64,000 nucleotides of DNA from an uncultured Chthonomonas sp. Its GTDB lineage: Bacteria; Armatimonadota; Chthonomonadetes; Chthonomonadales; CAJBBX01. The DNA lies in the NCBI GenBank assembly GCA_903951425.1, contig CAJBBX010000156.1:62001-126000 (forward strand). Reading direction: 5' to 3'. The notes beneath the pieces were generated by a model. It searched no databases. It saw nothing but the letters and a program-made list of their open reading frames with translations, and was not told where the DNA came from. This document shows, in pieces, positions 25,107 through 55,524 of the stretch (the stretch's first letter is position 1; each line of letters starts with the position of its first letter). Made by a program: the position numbers and the translations under genes.

Positions 25107-26351
25107 ATGGCAACATTCAGCTATACAGTCAGGGACTCGGCGGGGATGACACGCTCCGGCACCACCGAGGCCGAGAACGCCGAGATCCTGCGGCGCCGGT
25201 TGCAGGAGCAGGGCTTCACCGTCGCTGATGTGCAGCAGACTGCCGCCGCCAAGAAGAAGCAGGCAGGGCAGGGCTGGGGGCGCGTCAAACTGGCCGACCT
25301 CTCGGTCTTCTGCCGCCAGTTCTCCACCATGATCGACGCAGGCGTCTCGCTCGTGCGTGCGCTGGACGTCCTAGGCGAGCAGACGCAGAACCCTAAGCTC
25401 CGCCGCATCCTGCTGGACATCCAGCAAGAGGTGGAGTCCGGGCAGACGCTCTCCAAGTCGATGTCCAAGTACCCCAAGACGTTCAGCAACCTCTTCCTGG
25501 GCCTCGTGAAGGCGGGAGAAGTCGGAGGCGTCCTTGAGGAGTCGCTGCAGAGGCTGTCAGGCTTCCTTGAGTCGGACATGGAGCTTCGCCGCAAGGTGAA
25601 GGCGGCCATGACCTACCCGACGCTGGTCGTCGTGGTGGCCGTCGGCATCGTGGTTGGCCTCTGTACCTTCATCGTCCCCAAGTTCATCGAGCTGTTCCGG
25701 GACCTGGGCGTGAAGGAACTGCCGCCCATGACCCAGATCCTCGTCGACTTCAGCGACTTCCTGAAGACGAAGTGGTACATCGGGATCACGATCGTCGTGG
25801 TCACGTGGGTCGCTGTCAAGTACTTCGGCACCACCCGCATCGGCCGTCGAGTGATCGACAGGATCAAGCTCAAAGTGCCGGTCTTCGGGCCCCTGCATCA
25901 CAAGATCGCCCTGGCGCGCTTCGCCCGCACGCTCTCCACGCTGCTGGTTTCCGGCGTGCCGATCCTGCAGGCGCTCGAGACGGTGGCGGGAACGGTGGGC
26001 AACGGCATCATCGCCGAGGCCATCATGCAGGCCCGAGCCCGCATCCGTGAAGGAGATCGGATCAACGATCCGCTGGAGAAGAGCGGCATGTTCCCGCCCA
26101 TGGTCGTCCACATGGTCTCCATCGGTGAGGAGTCTGGAGCTCTCGACACGATGCTGTCGAAGATCGCCGAGTTCTATGAGCAGGAGGTTGAGGCTACCCT
26201 TCAGAGCCTTACCGCCGCCATCGAGCCGATCCTCATCGTGGTCCTGGGCTTCTGCGTCGGCTTCATCGTCATCGCCATGTTCCAGCCGCTCATCGCGGTG
26301 ATCCAGAACCTGACATCCGGCGGCGGCGACGACAAGAGCTCCGCCGAATAG
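25107..26351 (+). CDS. pilC: Type IV pilus inner-membrane platform protein PilC (GspF family)
   Basis: Platform protein of 414 aa that connects the motor ATPases to the growing pilus. The N-terminal small domain (FSYTVRDSAGMTRSGTTEAEN) is followed by two GspF domains: the first from about residue 70 (LADLSVFCRQFSTMIDAGVSLVRAL), the second from about 275 (LARFARTLSTLLVSGVPILQALE). Three hydrophobic segments are at about residues 172-192, 222-245 and 375-400. It ends with the usual PIL/VLG membrane segment. Spacing from pilT is 42 bases with a GGGGGC-rich ribosome region. Confidence 0.97.
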   Translation: MATFSYTVRDSAGMTRSGTTEAENAEILRRRLQEQGFTVADVQQTAAAKKKQAGQGWGRVKLADLSVFCRQFSTMIDAGVSLVRALDVLGEQTQNPKLRRILLDIQQEVESGQTLSKSMSKYPKTFSNLFLGLVKAGEVGGVLEESLQRLSGFLESDMELRRKVKAAMTYPTLVVVVAVGIVVGLCTFIVPKFIELFRDLGVKELPPMTQILVDFSDFLKTKWYIGITIVVVTWVAVKYFGTTRIGRRVIDRIKLKVPVFGPLHHKIALARFARTLSTLLVSGVPILQALETVAGTVGNGIIAEAIMQARARIREGDRINDPLEKSGMFPPMVVHMVSIGEESGALDTMLSKIAEFYEQEVEATLQSLTAAIEPILIVVLGFCVGFIVIAMFQPLIAVIQNLTSGGGDDKSSAE

Positions 26352-26474
26352 CGGGCCGGGCGACTGTGGCGCGGTTGGCGTCTGTGTGATCTAAGGTGGG
26401 GCGCGTGGTCGGCCTGATGGCCCATGCGCCCTGCCCATCATAGTTCCTGGCTGGACCTGGGGAAGGGTGGCGGC

Positions 26475-27485
26475 GTGCCGGAGGTTCCGAGCGAAGTGTG
26501 GCTGGTGCTGGCGGGGCTCTTCGGCGCTGTCGTAGGGAGCTTCCTCAACGTCGTCATATGGCGCATGCCCCGCAACGAGTCCATCGCGTTCCCGGGTTCG
26601 CACTGTCCGCGATGCAACCACGAGCTCTCGGCGTGGGAGAACGTGCCGGTCCTCAGTTGGCTGCTGCTGCGGGCCAAGTGCCGGAAGTGCCGAATGCCGA
26701 TCTCGGCGCGGTACCCGGCGGTTGAGCTGCTGAACGCGACCCTTTGGGTGGCATGCGTGGCGCATTTCGGGCCGGGGCCCGATGCCGTAGCCTACTGCCT
26801 GTTCAGTTCGGCGATGATCGCGGCGTTCGCCATCGACTGGGAACACTACATCATCCCGGACGAAGTGAACGCCTTCGCATTGTTTGTCGGTGTAGCTCGT
26901 GACCTGTACGGCGCCTGGGCCGGTGAGCCCGCGCACGCATTGTTGATGGGCTGGATGCCCCGGTCGGTGGCCGCGGGCATCCTCTGCGCGTCTGCCTTCG
27001 TGGGAGTGCAGATTCTTGGTCGGGCGCTGTTCCGCCAGGACGCGATGGGTGACGGCGACGTGAAGCTGGCGCGCGCCATTGGGGCCGTCCTGCCGTTGCA
27101 GCTTGCCGGGGTATCTTTCTTGTTCGCTATCGCGGTCGGCGCGCTAGTCGGCACTGCGATGCTGGCGGTGGCCGCGCGCTCCGGCCGGAATCAGCCGGCG
27201 GCAGAGGCAGACGAGCTTCCGATGCCTGAGCCGACGCCGTGGCCGGTGCTTCTCAGGTGTGGCCTGATCTATATGACGTATCTGGACATGTTGCCGGCCA
27301 GGGCCAATGCCGCACTGGTGCGCTGGTCCGGCGCTGAGGATTTGGCTGAAGGGGAGGACGACGATTTCCGTCCCGGCCCCACGCATATCCCGTTTGGGCC
27401 ATACATGGTGTTGGGCGCCGCGCTCTCCGTAGCGTTCGGGCAAGCCGCCGTGGATTGGTACCTGACGACCATCGGAATGAAGTGA
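26475..27485 (+). CDS. pilD: Prepilin peptidase / N-methyltransferase PilD
   Basis: Polytopic membrane aspartic protease that cuts and methylates prepilins. From the GTG at 26475 the protein has 336 aa and starts MPEVPSEVWLVLAGL, the classic PilD beginning; GGGGAAGG lies just upstream, whereas the earlier ATG at 26424 has no ribosome site. The zinc-type cysteine pairs are CPRC and CRKC (both of the CxxC form). The catalytic aspartates are in IDWEHYIIPDE and GDGDVKL. About seven to eight transmembrane segments are visible; an extra charged loop (about residues 235-260) and a C-terminal membrane helix lengthen it. It should process the five prepilin-like proteins of the window. Confidence 0.94.
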   Translation: MPEVPSEVWLVLAGLFGAVVGSFLNVVIWRMPRNESIAFPGSHCPRCNHELSAWENVPVLSWLLLRAKCRKCRMPISARYPAVELLNATLWVACVAHFGPGPDAVAYCLFSSAMIAAFAIDWEHYIIPDEVNAFALFVGVARDLYGAWAGEPAHALLMGWMPRSVAAGILCASAFVGVQILGRALFRQDAMGDGDVKLARAIGAVLPLQLAGVSFLFAIAVGALVGTAMLAVAARSGRNQPAAEADELPMPEPTPWPVLLRCGLIYMTYLDMLPARANAALVRWSGAEDLAEGEDDDFRPGPTHIPFGPYMVLGAALSVAFGQAAVDWYLTTIGMK

Positions 27486-40542: not shown

Positions 40543-40621
40543 TTGCCGCAAGGCGCCCTCCCGGGCTATCAAATGCGTTAGGTGGGGCCACATTGGCCGT
40601 ACGGATAGGGTGGATCGTTCC

Positions 40622-43600
40622 ATGAAGCACACTCGAATGAGTTCCCTTGCCGGGCTGGCGGCGGTGCTGGCAGCCACGATCGGCGTGCCGGGAGCTTGTC
40701 AGACGTTCACCGACAGCGACTGGCTTCACGGGCGCGGCGGCCCCCAGCGGCGCGGCTCCAACGGGGATCCCGGCCTCGATTCCGCTACCAGGCAGCTCGG
40801 CCGCGTTTGGGTCTATCCTGCGACGCGTGACCTGCCGGCTGAGATCGTGGTCGACAACACCACGCTGCCTCCCGCGGCGGCCAACGCCACCGGCCAGGGC
40901 TTCGTAGTCTCCGGCGCCTGGACCTACCCGACTGTAGCAGATCGAGCGTACGGCGCATGGCCGCCGAGCGACCAGACCGCGAGCAAGCTGGGCGACTATG
41001 TCTACGCGCCCGCCATCGCCAGCGCCGACCTGGCCACGCTGGGCACGGACATCCTGGCCGGCCTGCCAGTGCTCGGAACCGACGCTGCAAGCACCACCGC
41101 CTATCGGACGATCCACAATGCCCTGAAGGCCAGCACCAACTACGCTCGCTGGACCTTCGGTACTGCCTACCCGGCGGCGACCAAGCAGGGCCTGGTTGAC
41201 GTCGGTAGCCGCGGCCTGCAGCCCAACCAGCGCTATGCCGTCTACATCCGCTTCCCATCCAGCGGCACCACCATCGGCGCTGATGCGCACCCTAACATCG
41301 ACCACGCCATGGTTCGCGTGAGCTGGGGCTCCGACCCTGACGATCCTATCACGAGCCGCATCTTCATGGTGGACTTCGGGCAGACGGGCGGCACGTGGAT
41401 CCGGATCCGCGCAGGCTCGGGCGACGATCGGTACTTCCCGTACGACGGAACCAACCCCCTACGGGTCACGCTTTATGCGGAGACGCCGGATGCGGTCACC
41501 GACACGTCGGCATTCCCGTACTCGCCGGTCATCGTGGCGGACGCTGTGCGTCTGGTGCCCGAGGCCCTGCGTGGCGAGATCCATGCCCCGGCCGTGAGTG
41601 CGGTGCTCCCGGCGGGCGACGCGACGGGTCATACCGCGTACACCCAGTTGACCTACTTCGGCCGCGATGAGACGACCGGTCCGGCATACCTTTTCCCGAC
41701 GACGGCCAGGTACACCAACTCGTCAGGTTTCGGCTCCGTGACGCTGGATCCGTCCACCGCCTACAACGCCGCCACGAACCCCATCATCGCAGATCCCACC
41801 TCCAGCATCCGGTCAGCCGTCTTCTACTGCATGCAGGACGATGTGGACACCGTGACGCCGAGCAACGGGAAGTACGGCAGACTGCGGTGGCGGTACGTTG
41901 CGCGGACCGCCCAGACCAAGAACACCACTGTGGACGACGCGGATGCGGGCTTCAGCACGGGTGTGACGCCGCAGGACTTCCCTGTGCTCGACCCGGTTCC
42001 TGCCTCGACGGACGATTTCTACGGCGCGAACTACCGCGCCGTGGCGGCCCAGGCGAGCGCCGTCACGCCGCGCACCGCCACATGGAGAGCGAGCCTGCCG
42101 GAAGGCACCTACTCGATCTACGCATGGATACCCGGCGCCGCCTCGCTGAACCCCACCCAGGTGGCTCGGAAGGCTCACTACGCCATCGCGACCTTGGCGG
42201 GCACCGTGGACGTGTGGCTTGACCAGCGCAACGCCTCGGACACCGCCACGCAGAAGTTCGGCACGTGGCGGCTCCTGACGTCGGGTGTCCACTTCATCCC
42301 GGCCACGGCAGGCGCCACGGTCGACGCGACTGTCGTGCTCGACAACGTGTCGGCGGAAGATGCAGCCGCGGCTCGCGCGGTTGTGGCGGACGCGATCCAG
42401 TTCGTGGCAGAGTCGCAGACCTCAAACAGCGTGGTTGCGTCACCGCTCGTCGCCGACGTGGCCTGGCCGTCGGGCGTCAAGCGCAAGGTCGTCTACTTCG
42501 GCACCACGGATGGGCATCTCTGGGCGTTGGACGCCCTGGGCGTGGGCGGCCAGAGCACGCTGACCACACCCTACTGGGTCTACCCCTCGGTTGCGAGCCC
42601 GGACCCGACCACCGACCTGAACGGCGACGGAGCCTTCAGCTTCCCGCAGGACGACCCCAACTTCATCTCGGACCCGATGAGCGGGCGGCCGAACCAGGCC
42701 ATCGACGGAGAGATGACGCCTGCCCGCCGGGCCGGCATTTCGACGTTCACAACCAAGAACGTGTTGCCGGACCTCGGCGCCTTCACCTCCTCGCCGATCT
42801 ACGTGGAGACCGAGAAGGGGCTGGCCCCCAACATCGTCCGAACGCCGTTCATCGTGGTGGGCAACGCCAACGGCAGGCTGTATGCGTTTGACCCGGTGGG
42901 CCGTGTCGATGCCACCAACGAGCCTTTTGCAACGACGATCTCCGCGGGCGATGTCACGGGCGTGCCCGGCACGACGCGGCGCCTGATGACCTGGCCGACC
43001 ACGGCTCGCGACAAGTGGCTCGACGCAGGCGGCACGGTCGCGCCGAAGCCGTTCAGCGCCTTCGCCGACGATGCGGGAGTGGTCTCCATTGCCTCGGCGC
43101 CGGCAGCGCCAAAACTCGATACGGCATTCCGCACCGATCGTGTGGTAATCGGCGCCGGCGACGGTCACGTCTATGCGGTAGACCTTCAGGGGCTCGACAC
43201 CAAGGAGCGCATCTCCAACCCGACCAAGGATGGCGCGGCGATCTGGCAGTTCCCTGAGAGCACGACCAGTCTCCCGCCCATCATGCTCAGCGGCGCCCTG
43301 ACGACCGACGACAACAGCGGACGCTACGTCTTCTCGGCCGGTGGCCGGGTCTACTGCGTGCGCGCACCGGATACCGCGGCGGGCCAGCCCAAGGATGCCG
43401 ACGGCTACCTGCGCCCGGACTGGGTCTACCCCTACGCGGTGGCGCCCGGCAACCCGGCCAAGGACAATGACGCAGCAGTGGAGGAGACCGAGTTCACGGC
43501 TCCGGCCTACAAGGCTACGGTACACGCAGACCTGAACAGCGGCAACGCGGTGGCCTTCGTCGCCAACAAGGACGGACGCGTCTTCGCGCTGGATGCCACG

Positions 43601-46600
43601 CCTACCACCAATCCGTCAGCCGGCCCGACGGTCCTTTGGCAGAGCGCCAGCCGCGGCAGCACTCGGGCGTCGGCCGTCTACATCGACTCGCTTCCACCGC
43701 AGGTTCGGTACGGGCTTGCGACGGCTCATCGCAACCCGGCTGTGGTCCTTCCGCTGGAGACCGGCGGGATCGTCGGCTTCTCGGCAGTGACCATCGGCGC
43801 CTCGGACGCCGGCATTCCTGTCTGGAGCTTCGGCGATGCTACGGTCGGCAGCGTGCCCCTGACGGCGCTGGGCGCCAACAACATCCCGTTGGCGGCGCCG
43901 GTCTCGTACCCCACGAGCTCTGCAGGGCGCGGCGCGGACGCCATCACGGCGAATACGTGGGCCTACAGCGGCGACGACGGCAACCCACAGACCGGCGAGC
44001 CGCACGGCCAGATGCGCGCCTACTGGCGGACCGCGTGGGCCAATGACTTGCTCGGCCTCGACATGCAGACGCCCGACGAGCCCGAGATTTCTGACGAGGA
44101 CGGCGAATCCACGATCAGCCTGCGCGGCGTCGAGGTCTGGAACGCCGAGAAGGACAAACCGGCGCAGCCGAACCCGGTCTGGGAGCGCTTCGGCGATACG
44201 GTGGCGGCCACAGCCAAGTCGGGCTTTACCGAGTGGGCGGCCGGCCACCACAAGGCCGATAGCGTGGGCGATCCGGACAACATGGTCGTGTACGAGTGGG
44301 GCGATACGATCTATACGGCGGCCTGGGGCATCATCCGCTCCACGGTGGCCAATCCGCCGCTTCCTACCGTCACGTTCCGCCTCTTCGGGTCGGGCCAGAG
44401 TCGACCGTCTCTCACCGTCGGCTCCCAGCGTGACGTCACGCTGGACGCGTTCGACTACGGCGACGGCTCGAAGGCTTACGCCTGGGTGGCGAAGATCGCC
44501 TTCCCCTTGGGCCGCGGCTCCGAGGCGGACGCACAGACGCCGGGTCGTCGTTACACGGTCTACGCCCAGGCTCAGTTGAACAGCAACGGCATCAACATCC
44601 CGTCGCTGCAGCTTGCGGCCGGCCAGTCCCTCATCAAGAAGTCAGACAATTGGCACCTTGAGCTATCGGCAGCCAACGAGAACAAGCTGGCCATCACCGA
44701 TAAGCGCACCATGGCCATCGCCCATCCGCTGGCCGTGAGCACGCGCGGCGCACCGGGCGGCGCCGGGGTCGGTCCGGCCGTGCCGAACGTGATGGGCTGG
44801 ACACTGACGCCGACGGGCGGCGCAGCTATTCAGGAGTTGTTGGCCAACGGCAACCACCGCTATAACCCGCCGGTGGGTCAGGGCGCACAGAAGGACATGG
44901 TGGCTCCGCTTGGCCTCGTAGGACACGGCGGAAGCGCTACCTACGTGGGCGTCGATGGCGCGGGCAACCGGCGCGACTCGTTCCTGGTGGCAGACCGCAG
45001 CAACCTGTACAAGCTGGGCCAGGCGCTGAACAACATCCGCGTCGAGCGGCGCGGCCTCGGCTGGAGCTACAACAAACAACTGGGCGGCGCTCGCGGCGCG
45101 ACCGGCGACGTGATGAACCCGCTGCCGTGGGAGTCCTTCCCGACGCGGGTGCCCAACGTCTCCAAGGACTACCCGGACATGGACGCCTCGCGCGTCACCC
45201 TTCGAGTGGGGTCCATGGACATTGGGACCAAGGCTGCCACGCTCCCCACCGCATGGGACAGCGCGACCTCGACCAAGCGGCTCAACTACGTCCCTGTTGA
45301 CCTGTCGGTGCAGGTGCCCAAGTTCCAGCCGGCCAACGTGTCGGCGGCCAACGCTTACGAAGACATCAACGGCAATGTCCGTGCCCTCTACGGCCCCATG
45401 CGGACCGATACCGGGTTGCCCGCCACGTCGGGCCTCTTCTCGCCCAGCGCGGGCTATGTGGGCCGGATCGTGGTCTTCGTCGACAACAACGGCGACGGCA
45501 AGTACCAGGGCGCCGCTGTCCAGACCTCGGCACAGCAGGCGCAGACCCAGTCGCGCGAGGAGGTCTACCGCTCCGTGGGTGTGGGCCTGGCGGTATCGCC
45601 GGACCTGAACATGCGGACCGAGGAAGAGACCATCGACCTGGGGCGCGCGCCGCACGGCGCCGGGCTGACGCCGACGATCCCGTTCCTGCCGTCGGGCGTC
45701 GGGCCATACGTCAACACGCCATCGCCGTTCGACTCTTCCAACGGCTTCCGGCTCTTCGCCCCGTTCACCGTCCGAAACCAGGGCAATGTGAACCTGACGA
45801 ACCTTCGGGTGGCCAAGGCTGTCGGCAATGCCGCCACCGCCGCCAACCCGCTCCTATGGCCAAGGCTCAACAGCGACCAGGTGTCGTCGCTGCAGTCGAC
45901 ATACCTGAGCTCAGGAGCGCCGATCCTGCTGGGCGGCCTCGACCCGCTGGCCAACTGGCGCCTGAACACGCCGATAGTGGCGCGCGCGTATCCGTTGCCC
46001 ATCGGCGCGGCGGGCGGCGCGGCCAACCTGGGCATCGTCTCCTCGCTGGACCATTCGCGTGGCAACGGCCAGTACGATATCGAGATTGACTGGAGCCTGG
46101 CTCCGTACAGCGCCGCGGCTCCCTGGCCGTTTAGCCTGGCGACGCTCGGCGTGGCAGGCGGCAATCCGTATATTCCGGCGTCGAACCCGCTGGGATGGGC
46201 CGAGGGCGTAAATGCCGTTCCGACGCTCCACAAGGCGCGCCCAGGCGACGGGACGGGCACGACCCTCTCGATCCCCGACGTCTCCTACGGCGACCCTCTG
46301 GGTGTCCTGGCTACACTGCGCGCCTCTGGGCGAGACGTCCGGCCGCGCATCGGCATCGCTCCCCCGGTGGGTGCGCCGGTGGGCACCTACACCGGCGTGG
46401 TGAACGTCTTTGAGGATGCGTTGCCCTTACAGTGGCGCGAGTGGACTGCCCACTACGCCTCGGCGAATGGCGGCGTGAACCCGCTTGCCACGGCTGCCGA
46501 CAACGACGGCATCCTGAACCTGAAGATCGATCCTGCCACGGGAGCCATGGTCGGTTCGGCCGTGGAGCCCACGGTGCAGAACCCGTTCCAGCTCCGCCTG

Positions 46601-48730
46601 ACCGTATCGGAAGCCAGGCTGACCAATGCGCCCCTCTTCCCGACGGCCGGCGGATCGATCATGCAGACCGACGGGACCTTCCCGCAGATCGACCTTCGGG
46701 TCCCGAGCGCGAACAACCCCAGCGCCGCGGCTTTCGGGGCCAACCTGTCGCCCTCTGCGGCCCGGGATCGCGTCAGCGGCGCCATGATGCTCGTCTGGTC
46801 CAGCAATCGGCCCAACAACGCGGGGTCGGCGCCGGAGCGGGCTGACGTGCCGTGGAGCCTCTTCACGTCGCAGCTCACCGGCGTGTCCGGCGCCCTCGGC
46901 GCCTTCGGGCCGCTCTACGGCTGGCGATACGAACAGGCCAATGCCCAGCCCACGCGCTGGTGGCAGCCGCTGGCGGCGTCGGCGCAGTTCCCGGGCCTGA
47001 CGGCCCCGGGCGGCCTCTTCCCGTCGGAGACGGCGGACATCAAGGGTAGCGCCCAGACCCCCGTGGTGGCGGGCGCCATCGTCACCAATCCGGTCGGCGA
47101 CCCGCTCACGGTGCATTCGGCGCCTGCGCTGGTCCAGACGGAGGGCGTACCCAACCCGGCTCAGCCGCTGTGGCTCTTCTGGCAAGGCGCCGTGAACAAG
47201 ACGGCGGGCGCCGGCCTGACGATGGACAGCCGCACCTTCTATGCACCAGTGCGCAACCAGGGAGGCGTCCTTGCGCCGGACCTGACCGTCAACAACGGCG
47301 TGCCCTTCTCATTCCTCAATGACCCGGCGCTACCGAAGTACTCGCCGCGGCCGTTGCTGGCCGGCGGGGGCGCGTTCCTTTTCTGGCACGGCGGTGCGAG
47401 CGGGCGGACACGGCTCTACTACAACGTTAACACGGCCAACATCACCACGCCGACCGCTTGGAGCGCCGACGCCGCGCTACCCGTGCCGGGCGGACTGCAG
47501 ATGGTTGCCGACCCGATACCTGTCCCGCGGCGGCGCGGCGACGGAAACACGATCACCGAGATCGACGTGGTGTTCACCGGGCAGTACGCCGGCAAGCGGA
47601 CGCCTGAGATCTTCCTCACGCGGTACAACGTCGGCGACCTGATGAACCGGCGGCCTGCGCTGGCGGTCCGGGCGCAGGCCCGCGTCACCGGCGAGCTACT
47701 GGTTCGGCAGGGCGCGACCCAGACCTGGCAGTCGCGGGATGTGGCCTGGATCTTCCGTGACCCCACCACCGGCGCATGGGTCGACGGTACGGGCAACAGC
47801 GCCCAGATCGCGATCTATGTCAACGGCGCACGGGTGAACCTGGGAACGCCGACCTACGATAGCGTGACCGGTAAGCTCTACTTTAACTCAACCCTGGGCG
47901 GCCGCTTGGTGGTCAACCCGCAGTCCGGCGCGGTAGCATTCACCGACGTCGCTCCGGGCGCTCGCGATGCGGTCACCGCGGACTACACGCCGCGCACGCT
48001 CAGGCTGAACGTGACACGCTCCGACAGCGGCGTTGTTGCGGCGCCGGCGGGCTGGGGCGGCGACCCGGGCTTCGCGGCCCAGCCTCACGTGGTGGCTGCA
48101 GGGGCCAACGGATCTCCCGTGGCGTTCGTAGACCGTGCCGTCAACCCCGTCGCCTCTGCTGACCCGTCCGGCGACCTCGTCCGGTCAGGGCAGGTAGGGA
48201 ATGCCCCGGCCACGGTGTCGAGAATGTGGGTGATCTACCGCAAGACCGGCGGCGCCGAATCGGGTGGCTCCGGTGCGCTGTTCTACAAGACCATGCGGCT
48301 CGCGGTTCGGCTCCCGAGGCCGATCCTGCGCAGCACGGTGGGCGGGGCCCTGAGGGTTGCCAACAACGTCACCGTAGCCGGTAATCGGGGCCCGGTGGAG
48401 ATTGACTGGATCCGCGGCCGCCTCTACTTCACAGAGGTCGACGAGGGCCAGCGCGTGACCGTTACGTTCAACCATAGCGGCGGCTCGCTGACGGCCGACT
48501 ACACGGTCGGGTGGGTCGACGAGATGAGCGTCGCGAGCACACCAGCCGACCAGACGGCAGGTGAGGCGCTGCTGCCCACGCGGTCGGTGGTGAACGAGGG
48601 ACAGGTATCCGCCTTCAAGGATCCGTTCCAGGACAAGGTGTGGGTCTTCTGGTCCAGCACCCGGGCGGGCACGACGGACCTATATTACATGGCCGTGAGC
48701 CCGTCGTTCTACCCGCGCTCAGCTTACTGA
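40622..48730 (+). CDS. Giant exported protein 2 (2702 aa) with golvesin-like and propeller domains
   Basis: Signal peptide at about residues 1-28 (SLAGLAAVLAATIGVPGA). Two golvesin/xanthan-lyase-like ligand domains are suggested: one ending near residue 310 (VIVADAVRLVPE), one at about 470-600 (ATWRASLPEGTYSIYAW, VVADAIQFV). A PQQ-type propeller follows (about 620-1060) with repeats YFGTTDGHLWALDA, VVGNANGRLYAFDP, VIGAGDGHVYAVDL and FVANKDGRVFALDA. CARDB-like text FTVRNQGNVNLTNLRV is near 1715. Calcium-type loops are DLNGDGAFSF and DNNGDGKYQG. Strand modules VTGKLYFN and RGRLYFTE are near the C-terminus. One uninterrupted frame of 8.1 kb. Probably surface or pilus-associated; not a PilY1 homologue by any motif I can see. 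Confidence 0.8.
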   Translation: MKHTRMSSLAGLAAVLAATIGVPGACQTFTDSDWLHGRGGPQRRGSNGDPGLDSATRQLGRVWVYPATRDLPAEIVVDNTTLPPAAANATGQGFVVSGAWTYPTVADRAYGAWPPSDQTASKLGDYVYAPAIASADLATLGTDILAGLPVLGTDAASTTAYRTIHNALKASTNYARWTFGTAYPAATKQGLVDVGSRGLQPNQRYAVYIRFPSSGTTIGADAHPNIDHAMVRVSWGSDPDDPITSRIFMVDFGQTGGTWIRIRAGSGDDRYFPYDGTNPLRVTLYAETPDAVTDTSAFPYSPVIVADAVRLVPEALRGEIHAPAVSAVLPAGDATGHTAYTQLTYFGRDETTGPAYLFPTTARYTNSSGFGSVTLDPSTAYNAATNPIIADPTSSIRSAVFYCMQDDVDTVTPSNGKYGRLRWRYVARTAQTKNTTVDDADAGFSTGVTPQDFPVLDPVPASTDDFYGANYRAVAAQASAVTPRTATWRASLPEGTYSIYAWIPGAASLNPTQVARKAHYAIATLAGTVDVWLDQRNASDTATQKFGTWRLLTSGVHFIPATAGATVDATVVLDNVSAEDAAAARAVVADAIQFVAESQTSNSVVASPLVADVAWPSGVKRKVVYFGTTDGHLWALDALGVGGQSTLTTPYWVYPSVASPDPTTDLNGDGAFSFPQDDPNFISDPMSGRPNQAIDGEMTPARRAGISTFTTKNVLPDLGAFTSSPIYVETEKGLAPNIVRTPFIVVGNANGRLYAFDPVGRVDATNEPFATTISAGDVTGVPGTTRRLMTWPTTARDKWLDAGGTVAPKPFSAFADDAGVVSIASAPAAPKLDTAFRTDRVVIGAGDGHVYAVDLQGLDTKERISNPTKDGAAIWQFPESTTSLPPIMLSGALTTDDNSGRYVFSAGGRVYCVRAPDTAAGQPKDADGYLRPDWVYPYAVAPGNPAKDNDAAVEETEFTAPAYKATVHADLNSGNAVAFVANKDGRVFALDATPTTNPSAGPTVLWQSASRGSTRASAVYIDSLPPQVRYGLATAHRNPAVVLPLETGGIVGFSAVTIGASDAGIPVWSFGDATVGSVPLTALGANNIPLAAPVSYPTSSAGRGADAITANTWAYSGDDGNPQTGEPHGQMRAYWRTAWANDLLGLDMQTPDEPEISDEDGESTISLRGVEVWNAEKDKPAQPNPVWERFGDTVAATAKSGFTEWAAGHHKADSVGDPDNMVVYEWGDTIYTAAWGIIRSTVANPPLPTVTFRLFGSGQSRPSLTVGSQRDVTLDAFDYGDGSKAYAWVAKIAFPLGRGSEADAQTPGRRYTVYAQAQLNSNGINIPSLQLAAGQSLIKKSDNWHLELSAANENKLAITDKRTMAIAHPLAVSTRGAPGGAGVGPAVPNVMGWTLTPTGGAAIQELLANGNHRYNPPVGQGAQKDMVAPLGLVGHGGSATYVGVDGAGNRRDSFLVADRSNLYKLGQALNNIRVERRGLGWSYNKQLGGARGATGDVMNPLPWESFPTRVPNVSKDYPDMDASRVTLRVGSMDIGTKAATLPTAWDSATSTKRLNYVPVDLSVQVPKFQPANVSAANAYEDINGNVRALYGPMRTDTGLPATSGLFSPSAGYVGRIVVFVDNNGDGKYQGAAVQTSAQQAQTQSREEVYRSVGVGLAVSPDLNMRTEEETIDLGRAPHGAGLTPTIPFLPSGVGPYVNTPSPFDSSNGFRLFAPFTVRNQGNVNLTNLRVAKAVGNAATAANPLLWPRLNSDQVSSLQSTYLSSGAPILLGGLDPLANWRLNTPIVARAYPLPIGAAGGAANLGIVSSLDHSRGNGQYDIEIDWSLAPYSAAAPWPFSLATLGVAGGNPYIPASNPLGWAEGVNAVPTLHKARPGDGTGTTLSIPDVSYGDPLGVLATLRASGRDVRPRIGIAPPVGAPVGTYTGVVNVFEDALPLQWREWTAHYASANGGVNPLATAADNDGILNLKIDPATGAMVGSAVEPTVQNPFQLRLTVSEARLTNAPLFPTAGGSIMQTDGTFPQIDLRVPSANNPSAAAFGANLSPSAARDRVSGAMMLVWSSNRPNNAGSAPERADVPWSLFTSQLTGVSGALGAFGPLYGWRYEQANAQPTRWWQPLAASAQFPGLTAPGGLFPSETADIKGSAQTPVVAGAIVTNPVGDPLTVHSAPALVQTEGVPNPAQPLWLFWQGAVNKTAGAGLTMDSRTFYAPVRNQGGVLAPDLTVNNGVPFSFLNDPALPKYSPRPLLAGGGAFLFWHGGASGRTRLYYNVNTANITTPTAWSADAALPVPGGLQMVADPIPVPRRRGDGNTITEIDVVFTGQYAGKRTPEIFLTRYNVGDLMNRRPALAVRAQARVTGELLVRQGATQTWQSRDVAWIFRDPTTGAWVDGTGNSAQIAIYVNGARVNLGTPTYDSVTGKLYFNSTLGGRLVVNPQSGAVAFTDVAPGARDAVTADYTPRTLRLNVTRSDSGVVAAPAGWGGDPGFAAQPHVVAAGANGSPVAFVDRAVNPVASADPSGDLVRSGQVGNAPATVSRMWVIYRKTGGAESGGSGALFYKTMRLAVRLPRPILRSTVGGALRVANNVTVAGNRGPVEIDWIRGRLYFTEVDEGQRVTVTFNHSGGSLTADYTVGWVDEMSVASTPADQTAGEALLPTRSVVNEGQVSAFKDPFQDKVWVFWSSTRAGTTDLYYMAVSPSFYPRSAY

Positions 48731-48921: not shown

Positions 48922-50199
48922 ATGGCGAGGTCGGGAGGACCGACGGTAGGGCTGGACATCGGCTCCAAGTACATCAAGGTAGCCGAAGTAGTCCCGAGCC
49001 GAAACGGCGTTGCCGTGCGGGCTCTCGGGATGGCTCCCACGCCTCCAGGCGCCCTGGAAGCGGGGGTCATCGTCGACGCGAAGCTCTTGGGCGACGCGAT
49101 CAAGAAGCTGCTCAAGGAGGCCGGCGTCGGCACACGCAGCTGTGTGAGTTCAGTATCAGGTTCGGGCGCGCTTGTCGTCCGAGTGATCGAAGTCCCGAAG
49201 ATGTCCGACTCCGAGTTGGCGGAGACGATGAAGTGGGAAGTGGAGCGCCACGTCCCGTTCGCCGCCAATGAAGTGATCATGGACTTCCAGGCCATCCAGC
49301 GCACCGACGACGATCCGGACGCCCAGAACATGGAAGTCCTGCTCGCGGTTGCGCAACAGGACATGGTCGACAAGCATGTAGAGGCCCTCTTTGCCGCGGG
49401 CCTTCAGCCGCGCAGCATCGATGTCGAGCCCCTGGCCGCCTCGCGCTGCCTGGTGGAGCTTGGCCCCGATCCGTGGGGTAAGAAGACAGTCGTCGTGGTG
49501 AACATCGGCGCGTCGATCACCGACATCGGCATCTTCCGAGATGGTGTGCTCTCCTTCCCGCGGACCCTGCCTCTGGCCGGCGACGCGATGACAAGCTCCA
49601 TCATGTCCCAGACCGGCCTTGAGGCCGATGCCGCCGAGGACCTGAAGCTACAGCACGCCGCCGTCCTCATGGGGCAGGCCCCGGCCGCACCGGCGCCGCA
49701 ACCTTCTGTAGCGGGTGGTTCCGACCTGGGGTTTGTCGACTTTTCATCGGGTGATGACAGCGGGTTGGACCTGTCTACGCCCACACTCGGTGAGCCCGAG
49801 CCGGTAGCCGCTCCTGTGGCGGCCCCCTCAGGCGATCCGACCACCATGCAGGTGTTCGGCGCCATTGCGCCGACGCTGGGCGACCTTCTGTCCGAAATAC
49901 GCCGCTCCATCGAGTACTACCGGGGTCGGTCATCTGACGGGCACATCGACCAGGTGCTCCTCTGCGGAGGAAGCGCGCGCATCAAAGATTTGGACAGGTT
50001 CCTGGCCGGCGAGCTGGGCGTACCCACCCAGGTGGCCGATGTATTCAAGTTCGCGCCTGTGTCAGCGAAGAGCGTTACTCCGGACTACCTGGAGACCATT
50101 GGCCCGTCGTTCGCCGTAGCCGTGGGCCTTGGCGCTCGAGATCTGGTCGCTGTACCTGCCACTGCCGCACCAAGCGGCCGCGGCAAGCGCAAGAAGTAG
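48922..50199 (+). CDS. pilM: Type IV pilus assembly protein PilM (actin-like ATPase)
   Basis: Cytoplasmic actin-fold protein (425 aa) that binds the N-terminus of PilN and couples the motor to the alignment complex. Phosphate-1 motif VGLDIGSKYIKVAEV is at the start. PilM signatures MKWEVERHVPF, VEPLAASRCL, VNIGASITDIGIFRDGVL and LLCGGSARIKDLDRFL are present. Compared with ordinary PilM (about 350 aa) it has an insertion of about 60 residues, rich in Pro, Ala, Ser and acidic residues, at about 250-312, just before the SEIRRSIEYYRG helix. It ends in a basic tail. First gene of the unit. Confidence 0.95.
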   Translation: MARSGGPTVGLDIGSKYIKVAEVVPSRNGVAVRALGMAPTPPGALEAGVIVDAKLLGDAIKKLLKEAGVGTRSCVSSVSGSGALVVRVIEVPKMSDSELAETMKWEVERHVPFAANEVIMDFQAIQRTDDDPDAQNMEVLLAVAQQDMVDKHVEALFAAGLQPRSIDVEPLAASRCLVELGPDPWGKKTVVVVNIGASITDIGIFRDGVLSFPRTLPLAGDAMTSSIMSQTGLEADAAEDLKLQHAAVLMGQAPAAPAPQPSVAGGSDLGFVDFSSGDDSGLDLSTPTLGEPEPVAAPVAAPSGDPTTMQVFGAIAPTLGDLLSEIRRSIEYYRGRSSDGHIDQVLLCGGSARIKDLDRFLAGELGVPTQVADVFKFAPVSAKSVTPDYLETIGPSFAVAVGLGARDLVAVPATAAPSGRGKRKK

Positions 50200-50218
50200 G
50201 GGAGGGAAGGAGCCGCTC

Positions 50219-51013
50219 ATGGTCCGTATCAACCTCCTGCCGCCGTACATCTACGCAGGCGCCAAACGTCGCAATGTGAGCATCCTCTGGGTGGTCATGG
50301 TGCTGGCTGTCGTTGGCGGTTTTATGTTCTGGAAGGTGACGATCGATACGCAGACTGCGAAGATCGTGGCCGACAAGGAAGCGCTCCAGCCGCAGATGGA
50401 TGAGGCCAAGCGGCTGCAGTCCGAGGCGGATCGCATTCTTGCGGAATCTGCCGAGATCACGAAGAAGCGCGACTTCGTCGCTGATGCTCGCAAGCATCTC
50501 GCGACCACGTACCCGCCGCTGATCGACAACGTGCGGAAGTACACGATGAAGAACGTGCTCTATAGCCAACTGACGCCCGCCGGGCAGACGGTGAGCCTAT
50601 CCGGGTACGCCACGAGCCTGGCGCAGGTTGGCCACTACATGATGTGGATGGAGCGGAACCCCGAGATCAACAGCCTGGATATCGGGCTGAGCGGGATTCC
50701 CAGCTTCCCCGTCACTCCCGGCCTGAACGGGAACGGCGGCGGCGGCCTGCGTCCACCGGGCGCCGGCGGCTACGACTTCACGGTGACCTTGAACCTGGTG
50801 AAGCCAGTGGCGGGCGCGCCGAGCTATGCCGGCGGCGGCGGCGCCCAGCAGGCCGCTGGCGGCGCGATGGCCGGCGGGATGATGATGGGTGGCGCCCCGA
50901 TGATGGGCGGCGGGGCTGCGGGTAGCGGCTTCGGTCCCGGCACCGGCGGTGGCATGACGGGTCCGAGCGGCGCACCCAGTGTGGGCGGCAAGTCGGACAA
51001 AGAGGATTATTAG
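50219..51013 (+). CDS. pilN: Type IV pilus inner-membrane alignment protein PilN with Gly/Met-rich tail
   Basis: The ATG at 50219 after GGAGGGAAGGAG gives MVRINLLPPY, the conserved PilN N-terminus that PilM grips. One transmembrane helix (about residues 20-37: VSILWVVMVLAVVGGFMFW) and a periplasmic coiled coil plus ferredoxin-like part (about 40-200) follow. The last 60 or so residues are Gly, Ala and Met (GGAMAGGMMMGGAPMMGGG), absent in classical PilN. Length 264 aa against about 180-200 in Proteobacteria. pilO follows after 4 bases. Confidence 0.92.
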   Translation: MVRINLLPPYIYAGAKRRNVSILWVVMVLAVVGGFMFWKVTIDTQTAKIVADKEALQPQMDEAKRLQSEADRILAESAEITKKRDFVADARKHLATTYPPLIDNVRKYTMKNVLYSQLTPAGQTVSLSGYATSLAQVGHYMMWMERNPEINSLDIGLSGIPSFPVTPGLNGNGGGGLRPPGAGGYDFTVTLNLVKPVAGAPSYAGGGGAQQAAGGAMAGGMMMGGAPMMGGGAAGSGFGPGTGGGMTGPSGAPSVGGKSDKEDY

Positions 51014-51017
51014 TCAT

Positions 51018-51953
51018 ATGTCAAAACTAACAGTCCTTCACATTAACATCATCGGAATCGCCATAGCCATCATCGTCGGGGCCGCGCTCTACTTCACCGT
51101 GATCACCAAGGCGAACGATGCCCAGAAGGTGGCTCAGGGGGAGTACGACGCGGTCAAGACCGAGGCAGACAAGCTTCCCGCCGCCAAGCGGAACCTGGCC
51201 GACGCCACGACCGGTCGCGCGGCGGCCATCGCTCAGTACAGCGCCTTTGAGGGGCAGTACATGCCCGTCATCGGCTACGACAAGGATGTTCTGCGCAACA
51301 TGATGCGGAACTTCTGGCCTAACGGCGGGAAGTCTTGGCCTGAGCGGTACATCAAGGTGTTTCGATCCTACATGGCTGCAGAGCAGAAGCGCAACGGCAT
51401 TGTCTGGGAGAACCCCGGTGTGCTGGTGCTGCCCAGCTTCGGCCCCGATCCGAACCGGATCGACGCGGCCGGCGCCGGTGAGGGGCTTGGTCCGGTGCTG
51501 CACTATAGCTACCAGATGAGCGTGCGCGCCCGGAACCTTCCGTCCTTGGTGCGGCACATTCAGAGCTGGTCAACAGCCAGAGGTTTCGGCGTCCCCACGG
51601 TGGACGGCCTGCAGATCCAGGGCAACTCGCCGAACCTTACGGCGTCCTACAACCTATCGCTTACGATCATCCTTCGTGATGTCGATGCTAAGTCGATCCC
51701 GCAGTCGAACGGCAGGATCACTGGTAGCGGCGGCGGCGGCGGCCCTATGGGTGGCATGGGTGGCATGGGTGGTGGCGATCGTGGCCGCGGGATGATGGGC
51801 GGCATGGGAATGCCGGGCATGGGCGGACCTCCTGGAATGTCACCGACCGGCATGGGTAGTGGCGGCGGCGCCCCGGCCGGAATGATGTCCGGCGGCGGCG
51901 CACCAGCCGCTCCGATGATGTCGGGCGGCGGCATGGCGATGGGCGCCAACTAG
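51018..51953 (+). CDS. pilO: Type IV pilus inner-membrane alignment protein PilO with Gly/Met-rich tail
   Basis: Protein of 311 aa: short cytoplasmic start, transmembrane helix at about residues 8-28 (INIIGIAIAIIVGAALYFTVI), coiled coil (about 30-80), then a globular periplasmic part with SYQMSVRARNLPSLVRHIQSW, the PilO ferredoxin-like motif region. The last 75 residues are a GGM-type low-complexity tail (GGMGGMGG, RGMMGGMGMPGMGG, SGGGAPAGMMSGGG). The start ATG at 51018 is supported by AGAGGA 11 bases upstream. PilO pairs with PilN in other organisms. Confidence 0.88.
   Translation: MSKLTVLHINIIGIAIAIIVGAALYFTVITKANDAQKVAQGEYDAVKTEADKLPAAKRNLADATTGRAAAIAQYSAFEGQYMPVIGYDKDVLRNMMRNFWPNGGKSWPERYIKVFRSYMAAEQKRNGIVWENPGVLVLPSFGPDPNRIDAAGAGEGLGPVLHYSYQMSVRARNLPSLVRHIQSWSTARGFGVPTVDGLQIQGNSPNLTASYNLSLTIILRDVDAKSIPQSNGRITGSGGGGGPMGGMGGMGGGDRGRGMMGGMGMPGMGGPPGMSPTGMGSGGGAPAGMMSGGGAPAAPMMSGGGMAMGAN
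51728..51949 (+). repeat. Low-complexity Gly/Met coding repeat in pilO
   Basis: GGC/GGT and ATG codons recur in short units (GGC-ATG-GGT and variants) through the last quarter of pilO. It codes for the tail described there and has parallels in four neighbouring genes. Confidence 0.75.
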
Positions 51954-52023
51954 CTGTGCAGATAGCATCAGGCAGTGTAACGGGCGGAGCACCGCATACG
52001 TCGCATAGACGAGGTGAGAGAAC

Positions 52024-52872
52024 GTGACCAAGCAGAGGATATGGCTCACAGCGACACTGGCAGCCGTGCTGGGCATCGGTTCGCTGGCCCTCGTCGGCTG
52101 CGGCGGTGGCGAATCCACTGAGGAGACCCCTGCCGCAGACGCATCCGGCGGCGGAAGTCCCTCCGGCGGGATGATGTCTGGCGGCGGCGCTCCCGGTGGC
52201 GGAGCGCCTATGATGCCAGCCGGCGGTAGTATGGCGATGATGAGCGGACCTCCCGGCATGGGTGGCGGCGGAGTGATGGGTGGCGGCGCTGCCCCTGCTG
52301 CAGCGGCCGGTGTTGCGCCGAAGGTGAAGACGGCTCCACCTGGCAGCAGGCTGGATCCGTTCGCTCCTTGGTGGAACTCAACGCCGCCTCCTCCTCCGGC
52401 CATCGGCCTCGTGCCGCAGATTCGCCTTGCCGCGTTCGGCACAGCGAAGAAGCCGGTTGAGGAGAAGGTGGTCGTCCAGGAGGTGCCCACGCGGCGCGTG
52501 GCGGGGATCGGCAACGGTCCAGGCGTCTACGCCCTGATCGAGGGTCCCGAGGGCCAGAGCGTTGTCCGCCCCGGCGACTCGGTAGGCGACTACAGGGTTG
52601 AGTCCATCACCGCGTCTGCTGTCGTGCTGAAGCGAACCGTGGGGAACGAGACCTATATCCAGACGGTACCCCTGACCGATGTCGGTGCGCAGTCGGCCGG
52701 CGGACTGATGGGCGGCCCCGGAGCTCCGGGCGGACCGGCCATGGGTTCTGGCGGTGGTATGCGCGGCCGGCGCCCAGGCGGCATGGGCATGATGGGTATG
52801 CCCGGCATGGGCGCCATGGGCGGTAAGGGCGGCGGCGCGTTCGGTGGCGCCGGTATGAACTCGGAAGACTGA
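52024..52872 (+). CDS. pilP: PilP-like periplasmic lipoprotein with Gly/Met-rich segments
   Basis: Lipoprotein of 282 aa starting at a GTG (GAGGTGAGAGAAC upstream); lipobox LALVGC with Cys near residue 22. A first Gly/Met/Pro segment (about residues 38-95) is followed by a PilP-like core: LDPFAPWWN, IRLAAFGTA, RRVAGIGNGPGVYALIEGPEGQSVVRPGDSVGDYRVESI (in parts), and SAVVLKRTV. These fit the PilP/GspC homology-region fold that links PilNO to the secretin. A second GGM tail (about 225-280) ends in NSED. The pilP name rests on position between pilO and pilQ and on the HR-like core, not on strong identity. Confidence 0.8.
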   Translation: MTKQRIWLTATLAAVLGIGSLALVGCGGGESTEETPAADASGGGSPSGGMMSGGGAPGGGAPMMPAGGSMAMMSGPPGMGGGGVMGGGAAPAAAAGVAPKVKTAPPGSRLDPFAPWWNSTPPPPPAIGLVPQIRLAAFGTAKKPVEEKVVVQEVPTRRVAGIGNGPGVYALIEGPEGQSVVRPGDSVGDYRVESITASAVVLKRTVGNETYIQTVPLTDVGAQSAGGLMGGPGAPGGPAMGSGGGMRGRRPGGMGMMGMPGMGAMGGKGGGAFGGAGMNSED

Positions 52873-52958
52873 TATCTGACCGCGTTTGGCGTGCTGCGCT
52901 ACGGCGTAGTTCGGCTGAGCGCTGAAACATGTTGCAACAACCCAGGAGGAAGGCTTCG

Positions 52959-53717
52959 ATGGCAAGCGCATTCCGGCGTGCAGTTGGCACGGTTAGTCTT
53001 GTAGCACTGGCTGTCGTGCTTGGTACGGTGGCGGCTCCGGCCGTAGCCCAGGACGGTGGCAGCACCGAGGTGAACACGAAGAAGGTCACGCTCAACCTGG
53101 AGAATGCCAACATCCAGTATGCGCTGAAGATGCTCTTCCAGATGGTGAACGTGAACTACAACATTGATACCAATGTTCAAGGCTCCGTGACCATTTCGCT
53201 CAACGAGGTGGGCTTCCGTATCGCCCTTGAGCAGATCCTGAAGTCGAGCCAGTCGCAGCTTCCGCTCACCTACCGCGTGGAGGACGGCATCTACCACGTG
53301 TCGGTGAAGCAGGAGGTCATCGAGGAGCAGCCTGCTGATACCGGCAGCGAGACCGAGACGACGCCCGTGAAGAAGGCCAGGACCCAGAAGATCCAGATCA
53401 ACTTTGCTGACTCGATGGATATCGCCATGGTCTTCGGCGGCGGCGCTATCCAGTCCAATCAGTCGCGCATGGGCATGGGCGGCGGCGGCTACGGCGGCGG
53501 CATGGGCGGCTACGGAGGCGGCGGTGGCATGGGCGGCATGGGCCAAGGCGGCATGGGCCAAGGCGGCTTCGGCGGCGGCGGCGGCGGCTTTGGCGGCAAT
53601 AGCTTCGGCGGCGGCGGCGGCGGCTTTGGCGGCAACCGCGGTGGCGGTGGCTTCGGCGGCGGCGGCGGTGGCTTTGGTGGCGGCGGCGGCTTCGGCGGCA
53701 ATCGCGGCTCTTTCTAG
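52959..53717 (+). CDS. STN (secretin N0-like) domain protein with glycine-rich tail
   Basis: Exported protein of 252 aa: signal peptide (LVALAVVLGTVAAPAVA), then an STN/N0-type domain (about residues 40-112: VTLNLENANIQYALKMLFQMVNVNYNIDTNV in parts, AFRIALEQIL-type LEQILKSS, YRVEDGIYHVSV). A linker with acidic residues and a second small strand segment (KIQINFADSMDIAMVFGGG) follow, then about 80 residues of almost only Gly with Met, Phe, Tyr and Gln. There is no secretin pore domain. Start at the ATG at 52959 with AGGAGGAAGG upstream. It may be a split N-terminal secretin ring or a pilotin-like partner for the next gene. Confidence 0.82.
   Translation: MASAFRRAVGTVSLVALAVVLGTVAAPAVAQDGGSTEVNTKKVTLNLENANIQYALKMLFQMVNVNYNIDTNVQGSVTISLNEVGFRIALEQILKSSQSQLPLTYRVEDGIYHVSVKQEVIEEQPADTGSETETTPVKKARTQKIQINFADSMDIAMVFGGGAIQSNQSRMGMGGGGYGGGMGGYGGGGGMGGMGQGGMGQGGFGGGGGGFGGNSFGGGGGGFGGNRGGGGFGGGGGGFGGGGGFGGNRGSF
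53469..53705 (+). repeat. Low-complexity glycine coding repeat
   Basis: GGC-dominated repeat (GGCGGCGGC, GGCATGGGCCAAGGC) coding for the Gly tail of the STN protein. It leaves all six frames open, which creates false ORFs. Confidence 0.8.
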
Positions 53718-53778
53718 GCGGTCGGCGAGCGGCAAGACCGACGCTGGCGTAATGGAACTCCGAGGGAGGACACAGACC

Positions 53779-55524
53779 ATGGGCTTCGGGAGGCGTTCGA
53801 CCGGCCTTCTATCTCTTAGCTTGGTTGCCGGGTTGGTGCTAAGCGGTCCCGTTAGGATGGCCGCTGCGCAGGAAGCCTCAATGGCTGCCCCGGTGATGGT
53901 CAATCGCGTCGACCTCGTCGACGCGGACCTTCAGGCCGCTGTGCGCATGCTGATGGCGCAGACCGGCGTCGAGATTGTGATAGAGTCAAGCGACAAGCCG
54001 TACGGCCGCGTCAACCTGACGCTGGAGAAGAAGTCGCTTAGCTCAGTGTTGAACATGATCTGCCTGGCTGCCGGCGCCTCGGTGCGGCAGGAGGGCGGGG
54101 TCTATGTGATCGGGCCCAAGGGCGCGGCGAAGCCCGAGGTCGAACCGGCCAAGGCAGTCGATGCGGCTCCCGCGCCGCTGCCGGAACCAGCGCCCGTGAA
54201 GAAGATGCGGGTCGAGCGGATACGGTGCATCAACGCCCGGCCGTCTGAGTTGCTCTCCTTCATGGGGCGCGACGCAGGCCCGTTGCCGGACATGATGCGC
54301 AAGCTCATGTTCGACCAGATGCCTGACCGCAACGCATACTCAAAGGTTGAGCCGGTCAACGTGAACCAGATGTCGCGCAACATTGTTCCCCCGGCGGTGA
54401 CGACGTCGTCGCAGGCCCCGAACACCGGCGCCGAGGCCCAGCAGTTTGGTGGCCGCGGCGGCGGTATGGGCGGCGGCGGCATGATGGGCGGCATGGGTGG
54501 CATGCAGGGCGGCATGGGCGGCATGGGCGGCGGCGGTATGATGGGCGGCATGGGCGGCATGCAGGGCGGCCGCGGCGGCGGCATGGGCGGAATGGGCCAG
54601 GGCGGCATGGGCCAGGGCGGAATGGGCCAGGGCGGACAGGGCCTGCTTCCCGAGGGCATCCTCTCGGTGCTTGCCTATGACATCGACAATACGCTCATTG
54701 TGCGCTCACAGGACGAGGACGCCCTTCGCGAACTCAAGGAGATCATCCGCCTTCTTGATATCGCGCCCCGGCAGCTCATGATCAAGGCGGAACTGGTCGA
54801 GGTTTCGCAGAACGAGCTTCGGCAGTTCGGCATCGATTGGCAGTTAGCACGCGGCACCCTGTCCGCAGGTGCAACGGGCATTGCTCCGCCCGCGCCGGCG
54901 GCGGTGTTCATGAACTACGCAACAGGTAACATTGCCGCGCAGCTTCGGTCGTCGCTCTCCACTTCGGGCCGCGGCCGCCAGGTTAGCGCTCCGATGGTAA
55001 CGACGCTTAACAACCTGCCAGTGAGTGTCTTCATCCAGCAGAGCATCCCGGTCTTCTCCAGTAGTTCGACCAGCGGCAACGGCTTCAGCAACTCCGGTTC
55101 CGGCGTTGCGGGTGTCGTGGACGTATCCTCTGGAATGTTCGTTGTGCCGCGCATCAACGGCGACGAGTCAGTGACGCTGACCGTTATGCCCATGGTGCAG
55201 ACGGTCGCTGGTACGGTTACCGGTCCCGACGGCACTACCGCGCCAATCGTGCATAGCCAGCAGGTTGGCCCGATCACCCGGCGTGTCCGCAATGGCGAGA
55301 CCATCGTCATCGCCGGCATGGTGACCAAGGCCGATAGCACGAGCCGCAAGAGTGTTCCGCTGTTCGGCGACCTTCCGTTGATCGGCAAGCTGTTCCAGGG
55401 TCGTGAGGCGGTGGTGGCAGACAACGAGCTACTTGTGTTTGTAACGCCGACGATTCTCCGGGACAGCAACAGCACGGAGCCCGAGGTGACCGTTACCGGT
55501 GGCTCGCCTCGCGTTAGCCCGTAG
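53779..55524 (+). CDS. pilQ: Type IV pilus secretin PilQ-like, with Gly/Met-rich insertion
   Basis: Outer-membrane secretin, 581 aa. Signal peptide (LLSLSLVAGLVLSGPVRMAAA), STN/N0 domain (about residues 44-115), Pro/Ala linker, then a KKMRVERIRC strand region. A Gly/Met insertion follows (about 224-288). Then an N1/N3-like domain (ILSVLAYDIDNTLIVRSQDEDALRELKEIIRLLDI in parts). The pore domain includes QLMIKAELVEVSQNELRQFGIDW, VSAPMVTTLNNLPVSVFIQQ, and the C-terminal signature VRNGETIVIAGMVTKAD...VPLFGDLPLIGKLFQG. The start at 53779 has GGGAGGA upstream. A strong terminator follows. Confidence 0.95.
   Translation: MGFGRRSTGLLSLSLVAGLVLSGPVRMAAAQEASMAAPVMVNRVDLVDADLQAAVRMLMAQTGVEIVIESSDKPYGRVNLTLEKKSLSSVLNMICLAAGASVRQEGGVYVIGPKGAAKPEVEPAKAVDAAPAPLPEPAPVKKMRVERIRCINARPSELLSFMGRDAGPLPDMMRKLMFDQMPDRNAYSKVEPVNVNQMSRNIVPPAVTTSSQAPNTGAEAQQFGGRGGGMGGGGMMGGMGGMQGGMGGMGGGGMMGGMGGMQGGRGGGMGGMGQGGMGQGGMGQGGQGLLPEGILSVLAYDIDNTLIVRSQDEDALRELKEIIRLLDIAPRQLMIKAELVEVSQNELRQFGIDWQLARGTLSAGATGIAPPAPAAVFMNYATGNIAAQLRSSLSTSGRGRQVSAPMVTTLNNLPVSVFIQQSIPVFSSSSTSGNGFSNSGSGVAGVVDVSSGMFVVPRINGDESVTLTVMPMVQTVAGTVTGPDGTTAPIVHSQQVGPITRRVRNGETIVIAGMVTKADSTSRKSVPLFGDLPLIGKLFQGREAVVADNELLVFVTPTILRDSNSTEPEVTVTGGSPRVSP
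54449..54640 (+). repeat. Tandem Gly/Met coding repeat inside pilQ
   Basis: The unit coding for MMGGMGGMQGG occurs twice (about 54481-54510 and 54538-54567), followed by three near-identical 15-bp units coding for GMGQG (about 54593-54637). Confidence 0.8.

Follow-up and report, generated by a model that had tools for sequence, protein, structure and literature searches.

Why five consecutive proteins of one pilus operon should carry glycine-rich segments of low complexity is the question raised by a 64,000-nucleotide stretch of DNA from an uncultured Chthonomonas sp. of the phylum Armatimonadota (assembly GCA_903951425.1, contig CAJBBX010000156.1, positions 62,001 to 126,000), the whole of which was analyzed and is referred to as the window. 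The pilM-pilN-pilO-pilP-STN-pilQ operon is located at 48922-55524 in the window, and a sequence-only reading had described shared GGM/MGG-type stretches in all of its proteins except PilM. It is well supported by the analysis that these segments are conserved, selected, and predicted-disordered periplasmic parts that evolve as a coordinated set.

The segments were found at about the places given in the sequence-only reading, and all are encoded on the + strand. PilN (50801..51010) and PilO (51672..51950) each have a C-terminal tail, and PilP has two segments, one lying between the lipid anchor and the homology-region domain (52093..52344) and the other forming its C-terminal tail (52663..52869). 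The stand-alone STN protein ends in a tail (53409..53714) that closes with NRGSF, and PilQ contains an internal insert (54391..54690) of approximately 100 disordered residues within N1, between alpha1 and beta2. PilM has a Pro/Ala/acidic insert in mid-protein instead of a Gly-rich segment, as had also been described. The property conserved among the segments is glycine richness rather than GGM, Met being optional, and the idea that all five proteins carry one kind of segment was rejected in favor of two compositional classes. Class I (PilN, PilO, and both PilP segments) combines Gly with Pro, Ala, and Met, in the order Gly/Ala/Pro/Met in the PilN tail and Gly/Met/Pro/Ala in that of PilO, and class II (STN and PilQ) combines Gly with Phe, Tyr, Gln, Asn, and Arg and has little Pro. 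In this genome the STN tail is mainly GGF/GGG, with Phe, Met, Asn, and Arg accompanying the Gly, and the PilQ insert is Met-rich too. Composition alone separated the two classes with 96% cross-validated accuracy (325 segments). According to established topology, the class I proteins are situated on the inner-membrane side of the pilus machine and the class II proteins on the secretin side.

Specificity of the segments was assessed within the same genome, both by a pattern search and by measuring the background rate on an untargeted 460 kb. The GGMGGM-coding pattern (the exact 17-base core of GGNATGGGNGGNATGGG) occurs nine times in the 6.08 Mb genome, and four of the nine matches are inside the 5-kb operon; another is in a gene for GroEL with a GGM tail (locus L008, 4285-5940, - strand; surveyed loci are numbered with the prefix L). 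A Gly/Met segment is present in 5 of the 6 operon genes as against 1 of the 293 genes predicted elsewhere in the sample (Fisher p=1.9e-9), and such segments are thus not equally frequent in unrelated genes; background genes were predicted with a simple open reading frame heuristic, which makes the counts approximate, although the contrast is large. The corresponding background in two relatives was 1/172 and 0/160. A type II secretion system (T2SS)-like operon of the same genome (L003), which encodes GspK and PilN-, PilO-, and GspC-like proteins, served as an internal comparison, and none of these proteins is Gly-rich in its tail (a maximum of 6-10 Gly in 40 residues). Relative to that operon, only the pilus machine has Gly-rich tails on its inner-membrane parts. 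Two genes of L003, at 5033-5938 (-) and 5935-8808 (-), encode a GspD-like second secretin with several Gly/Met-rich loops and, in the gene after it, a DUF5666-like protein with a strongly GGM-rich C-terminal tail; because of this GspD, Gly loops in secretin N-domains may be common. Two separate observations were made at other loci: a small predicted single-transmembrane protein with a Gly/Met/Pro-rich tail like the class I pilus tails (L005, 6835-7158, -), and a large efflux-pump-like protein with GMGGMGG in a predicted loop (L006, 5027-8587, -).

Occurrence across the phylum was surveyed by searching sixty relatives, which yielded 56 operon regions; together with 80 named loci, these gave 113 distinct loci after removal of duplicates, 61 of them with a complete operon. 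The closest named contigs belong to Lac Pavin and La Plata metagenome-assembled genomes (MAGs) labelled Armatimonadetes or Chthonomonas. Many contigs of relatives end inside the Gly-rich repeat of STN or PilQ (for example L041, L043, L049, L050, L061, and L068) and so often split this operon in MAGs, which is why complete operons are fewer than genomes and why some repeat lengths may be assembly-limited. With a segment scored as present at 14 or more Gly in 40 residues, the 61 operons had one in STN in 60 cases, in PilQ in 45, in PilN in 39, in PilO in 37, in PilP in 32, and in PilM in 0. Sister species and most of the phylum keep the segments, and neither of the two outcomes that the sequence-only reading had named as refuting was therefore observed. 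Their occurrence is nested: operons without the PilQ insert account for 0/37 PilO tails, 0/32 PilP segments, and 1/39 PilN tails. Ten loci from Aerophobetes, Actinobacteria-labelled, and Methylomirabilota MAGs showed no Gly-rich segments in the parts recovered, and specificity to the phylum is provisional because other phyla were sampled thinly.

Parsimony on a tree of the operon core required 6-11 changes per gene, and the association among the segments therefore rests on several events. Independent contrasts of Gly content gave r=0.56 for N-Q, 0.50 for O-Q, 0.37 for P-Q, 0.33 for O-P, 0.31 for N-O, and 0.26 for N-P; GC content at third codon positions (GC3) had no effect on the contrasts among the N, O, P, and Q segments, and complete sets of segments are present in genomes of 45-50% GC. 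The correlated occurrence in pilN, pilO, pilP, and pilQ that the sequence-only reading had proposed to look for accordingly holds after correction for both phylogeny and GC. Met content, likewise controlled for phylogeny, covaries among N, O, and P only (N-O contrast 0.68) and not with STN or PilQ. Enrichment of an acidic C-terminal motif was seen in tailed PilO (19/57 vs 4/28) and PilP (15/39 vs 5/43) but not in PilN, and as a further feature shared by the class I tails it was set aside as too weak.

Against two sister species, the ratio of nonsynonymous to synonymous substitution rates (dN/dS) in the segments was 0.10 for PilN, 0.08-0.09 for PilO, 0.04-0.10 for the two PilP segments together, 0.06 for PilQ, and 0.21-0.23 for STN. 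These values, to which repeat alignment adds uncertainty, are somewhat above or near those of the folded cores and far below 1, and they indicate that the segments are under purifying selection. The N, O, and P segments of one genome have longer peptides in common than those of unrelated genomes do (p=6e-18, 6e-8, and 1e-7), and no such excess was found between PilP and STN (p=0.44), the products of adjacent genes, so that segments have hardly been exchanged across the pilP/STN boundary. Recent copying of DNA between the pilN and pilO tails is clear in some genomes, where the codons of the shared peptide are identical (16/16 in L057, 23/26 in L044, and 21/26 in L061). In L104, 30 of 32 residues of the shared peptide are identical, yet only 6 of 21 codons are, as against 6.6 expected, and L072, L075, and L161 likewise retain a shared peptide with randomized synonymous sites, which suggests that the peptide itself was maintained. 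A general rule that PilN and PilO tails match was not upheld; they do so in some lineages only, and the own-genome excess over close relatives is modest (17/29, p=0.026).

The stand-alone STN protein (gene 52929..53717, +) consists of a signal peptide, an N0 domain, the first half of an N1 domain, and a disordered Gly-rich tail with an RGSF tip. Its residues 51-171 match TIGR02515 PilQ (3.7e-14), all top PDB matches of its profile are PilQ, and comparison of the STN and PilQ profiles with hhalign gave 99.9% probability (E 1e-32) over N0 and the start of N1. The AlphaFold2 model has a confident N0 fold with residues 179-259 predicted to be disordered, and Foldseek matched it to N0 of PilQ 4ar0 and also to chains of the Dot/Icm outer-membrane complex. 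To judge from these profile and fold matches, STN is a duplicated N0 plus half-N1 module, a paralogue of the PilQ N-terminus. It ends after the half N1 and has no Secretin domain, and it is not a secretin because the barrel domain is absent. In the AlphaFold2 model of PilQ, residues 183-286 have a predicted local distance difference test score below 50 and are flanked by the N1 helices (155-178) and a strand (294-300); the STN chain leaves its fold, and its tail starts, at the site where PilQ holds this insert. The C-terminal tip R-x(0-3)-[FWY]-COOH was found in 39 of 65 relatives, whereas shuffling of the tails gave an expectation of 1.4 (at most 7 in 2000), and it is kept also in relatives with Ser- or Asn-rich tails. 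It resembles a docking tip on a flexible tether, and STN with its Arg-aromatic tip represents a conserved, uncharacterized pilus protein. A similar architecture is known from bacterial single-stranded DNA-binding protein, in which a folded domain is followed by a Gly-rich linker and a conserved C-terminal tip ending in Phe; that likeness is a lead only, since the tip there is acidic rather than basic-aromatic and there is no homology. Free N0-like proteins exist in outer-membrane complexes, as with Legionella DotD (PMC2951367), although DotD is a type IVB secretion lipoprotein with an N-terminal extension, whereas STN is paralogous to PilQ and bears its Gly tail, with the Arg-aromatic tip, at the C terminus.

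Identities of the operon proteins were weak in single-protein database searches and firm in family-profile searches. PilM (48922..50199, +) matched Pfam PilM_2 (1.9e-55) and TIGR01175 (4.5e-70). PilN (50219..51013, +) is a transmembrane protein with a periplasmic domain, and a profile of 39 relatives, in 8 of which PF05137 was found, matched Myxococcus PilN 3jc8 (5.3e-18). PilO (51018..51953, +) was assigned by gene order and by the top PDB match of its profile, which is PilO (E 2.3e-3); PF04350 was found in 4 of 42 relatives. The PilP-like lipoprotein (gene pilP, 52024..52872, +) has the lipobox LVGC and its homology-region domain is flanked by both Gly-rich segments; the three top matches of its profile were PilP 2ivw, GspC 3oss, and PilP 4av2, and T2SSC/PilP was found in 5 of 31 relatives. 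The PilQ secretin (53779..55524, +) matched Pfam Secretin (5.2e-31), with V. cholerae PilQ 6w6m as top Foldseek match (3e-22). On these Pfam, NCBIfam, and PDB profile matches and on synteny in the 61 complete operons, the operon is identified as the PilMNOPQ subcomplex of a type IV pilus. It is homologous to the type IVa alignment/secretin subcomplex of Neisseria, Myxococcus, Pseudomonas, and Vibrio, since profile and fold searches match, and it has the same gene order, domain content, and inferred chain from inner to outer membrane. Features that are extra here are the Gly-rich PilN and PilO tails, the two PilP segments, the PilQ N1 insert, and the STN protein between pilP and pilQ. Open-access literature, searched partly with narrow queries, contained no description of Gly-rich segments for pilus proteins, secretins, or Armatimonadota, and this variant of the type IVa machine is apparently undescribed in the literature searched. 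In relatives, the length of pilM, which encodes a cytoplasmic protein, varies from approximately 394 to 799 aa (for example L086 and L089), apparently through low-complexity additions.

The reading that we tentatively prefer, at somewhat less than even confidence, is that the segments form a phylum-specific, disordered periplasmic layer of brushes and tethers around the pilus channel. A soft collar around the secretin vestibule would be made up of the PilQ inserts, of which each subunit in the ring contributes one, and of the STN tails, in which Gly separates F/Y/R 'stickers', and STN would act as an extra N0-like layer or a PilP-binding adaptor, tethered by its tail and docked on a partner by its tip. 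On the inner-membrane side, the tails of PilN, PilO, and PilP, which resemble one another, would form a second brush of different chemistry, and the two brushes would loosely couple the inner and outer halves during pilin passage and motor pulling. Neisseria PilP has an unstructured linker that is the probable binding site for PilN/PilO, and N0 of PilQ is bound by the folded domain of PilP (PMC3441751). The vestibule of PilQ tapers from 90 to 60 Å (PMC7545093); the brushes would keep this wide space filled as pilins of many kinds pass. The flexible periplasmic meshwork of the sequence-only reading is plausible because the segments are operon-specific, kept in the phylum, selected, and correlated; placement relative to the lumen, cohesion, the partner of the tip, and a mechanical or sealing role are steps that we infer. 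Several points weigh against this reading. The N1 insert could point into the channel lumen or outward, and tails, unlike linkers, need not touch. Similarity between PilN and PilO tails in this genus is not above expectation, and covariation of the STN tail with the other segments, although considered, was not seen, its presence being nearly universal and its Gly content near ceiling. In addition, N, O, P, and Q are all without segments in 15 of the 61 operons, and the segments of these four proteins are therefore not essential to a type IV pilus machine of this phylum.

The strongest rival, which is possible though doubtful, is that the segments are passive spacers, tolerated low-complexity sequence giving only length and flexibility without cohesion or specific contact. 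Met, Phe, Tyr, Ser, and Asn drift in the segments while glycine stays, the PilQ insert and STN tail are predicted to be disordered, and the Neisseria PilP linker offers an unstructured precedent (PMC3441751), but such spacers would not account for two unmixed compositional classes, low dN/dS, peptides common to N, O, and P, or a conserved STN tip, and, because C-terminal tails join nothing, the term linker suits no segments but the PilQ insert and the first of the two in PilP. Near-neutral expansion of repeats in GC-rich DNA, spread to neighboring genes by gene conversion, is very improbable. In its favor, the segments of STN and PilQ contain imperfect tandem units, and pilN-pilO tail DNA has been copied as noted above; random expansion was rejected on the dN/dS range of 0.04-0.23, the independence from GC3, with full sets at 45-50% GC, and the confinement to this operon, and retention of the STN tail in 60/61 operons and the survival of shared peptides through synonymous randomization also argue against expansion. 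The suggestion of copper binding or of a methionine oxidation buffer fared worst and is extremely improbable. Met does make up 6-10% of the class I segments on average, but several lineages retain Gly-rich N, O, and P tails that are almost devoid of it (in L130 these have 25, 24, and 26 Gly per 40 aa and zero Met), its covariation is limited to those three proteins, at least 4 Met in the PilQ insert are typical of this genus and rare elsewhere (6/61 operons), and the segments have approximately 0.3% His or less and 0.2% Cys or less.

Two further possibilities give the segments a more active part. Handling of substrate, in which the segments would line the passage and bind pilins or the growing pilus transiently as a chaperone or lubricant, is improbable, although it would suit a machine serving dozens of different pseudopilins: 50 matches to the pseudopilin family PF07596 (DUF1559/SBP_bac_10) were found on many contigs of the genome, in line with a report of 79 pilin-like genes in Fimbriimonas (PMC4072686), together with 7 secretins and 9 T2SSE ATPase matches. 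Of the Gly/Met tails that have been studied, those of GroEL come closest; they are important for function (PMC11978752) and partly polyproline II (PMC12571646), and GroEL of this genome is itself among the nine pattern matches. GroEL likewise has a selected, GGM-type low-complexity C-terminal tail on the subunits of a ring machine, but it is a cytoplasmic chaperonin with a short tail of 24 residues in which Met is always prominent, whereas in the pilus segments Gly is conserved and Met optional; the likeness is one of analogy, with no homology claimed, and both contact with pilins and a lumen-facing orientation are hypothetical. Also improbable is a disordered gate in or around the secretin formed by the class II parts of PilQ and STN in the manner of phenylalanine-glycine (FG) nucleoporins, which together with a cohesive class I brush on PilN, PilO, and PilP would give a selective, self-sealing collar; if true, an FG-like soft collar would pass a moving pilus and keep the envelope tight. 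With their Gly spacers and F/Y/R residues, the class II segments are candidates for low-complexity domains of the phase-separating RGG/FG type. For five proteins in mutual contact to gain disordered tails in a coordinated and nested fashion across a phylum is unusual evidence for disorder as a selected structural part of an envelope nanomachine, and it opens to test by what means a secretin channel remains sealed and mechanically coupled as the pilus moves.

The remaining pilus genes of the window were assigned from Pfam T2SSE, T2SSF, and Peptidase_A24 matches and are all on the + strand: the motor genes pilB (21970-23781), pilT (23871-25064), and pilC (25107-26351), and pilD (26424-27485) of the motor and processing set. 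A search of the window against Rfam gave no matches. Downstream of the operon, pilQ is followed by aroC and then, by position, by aroK- and aroB-like genes. Upstream, pilM is adjoined by a gene for a very large predicted secreted protein of 2706 aa (40610-48730, +).

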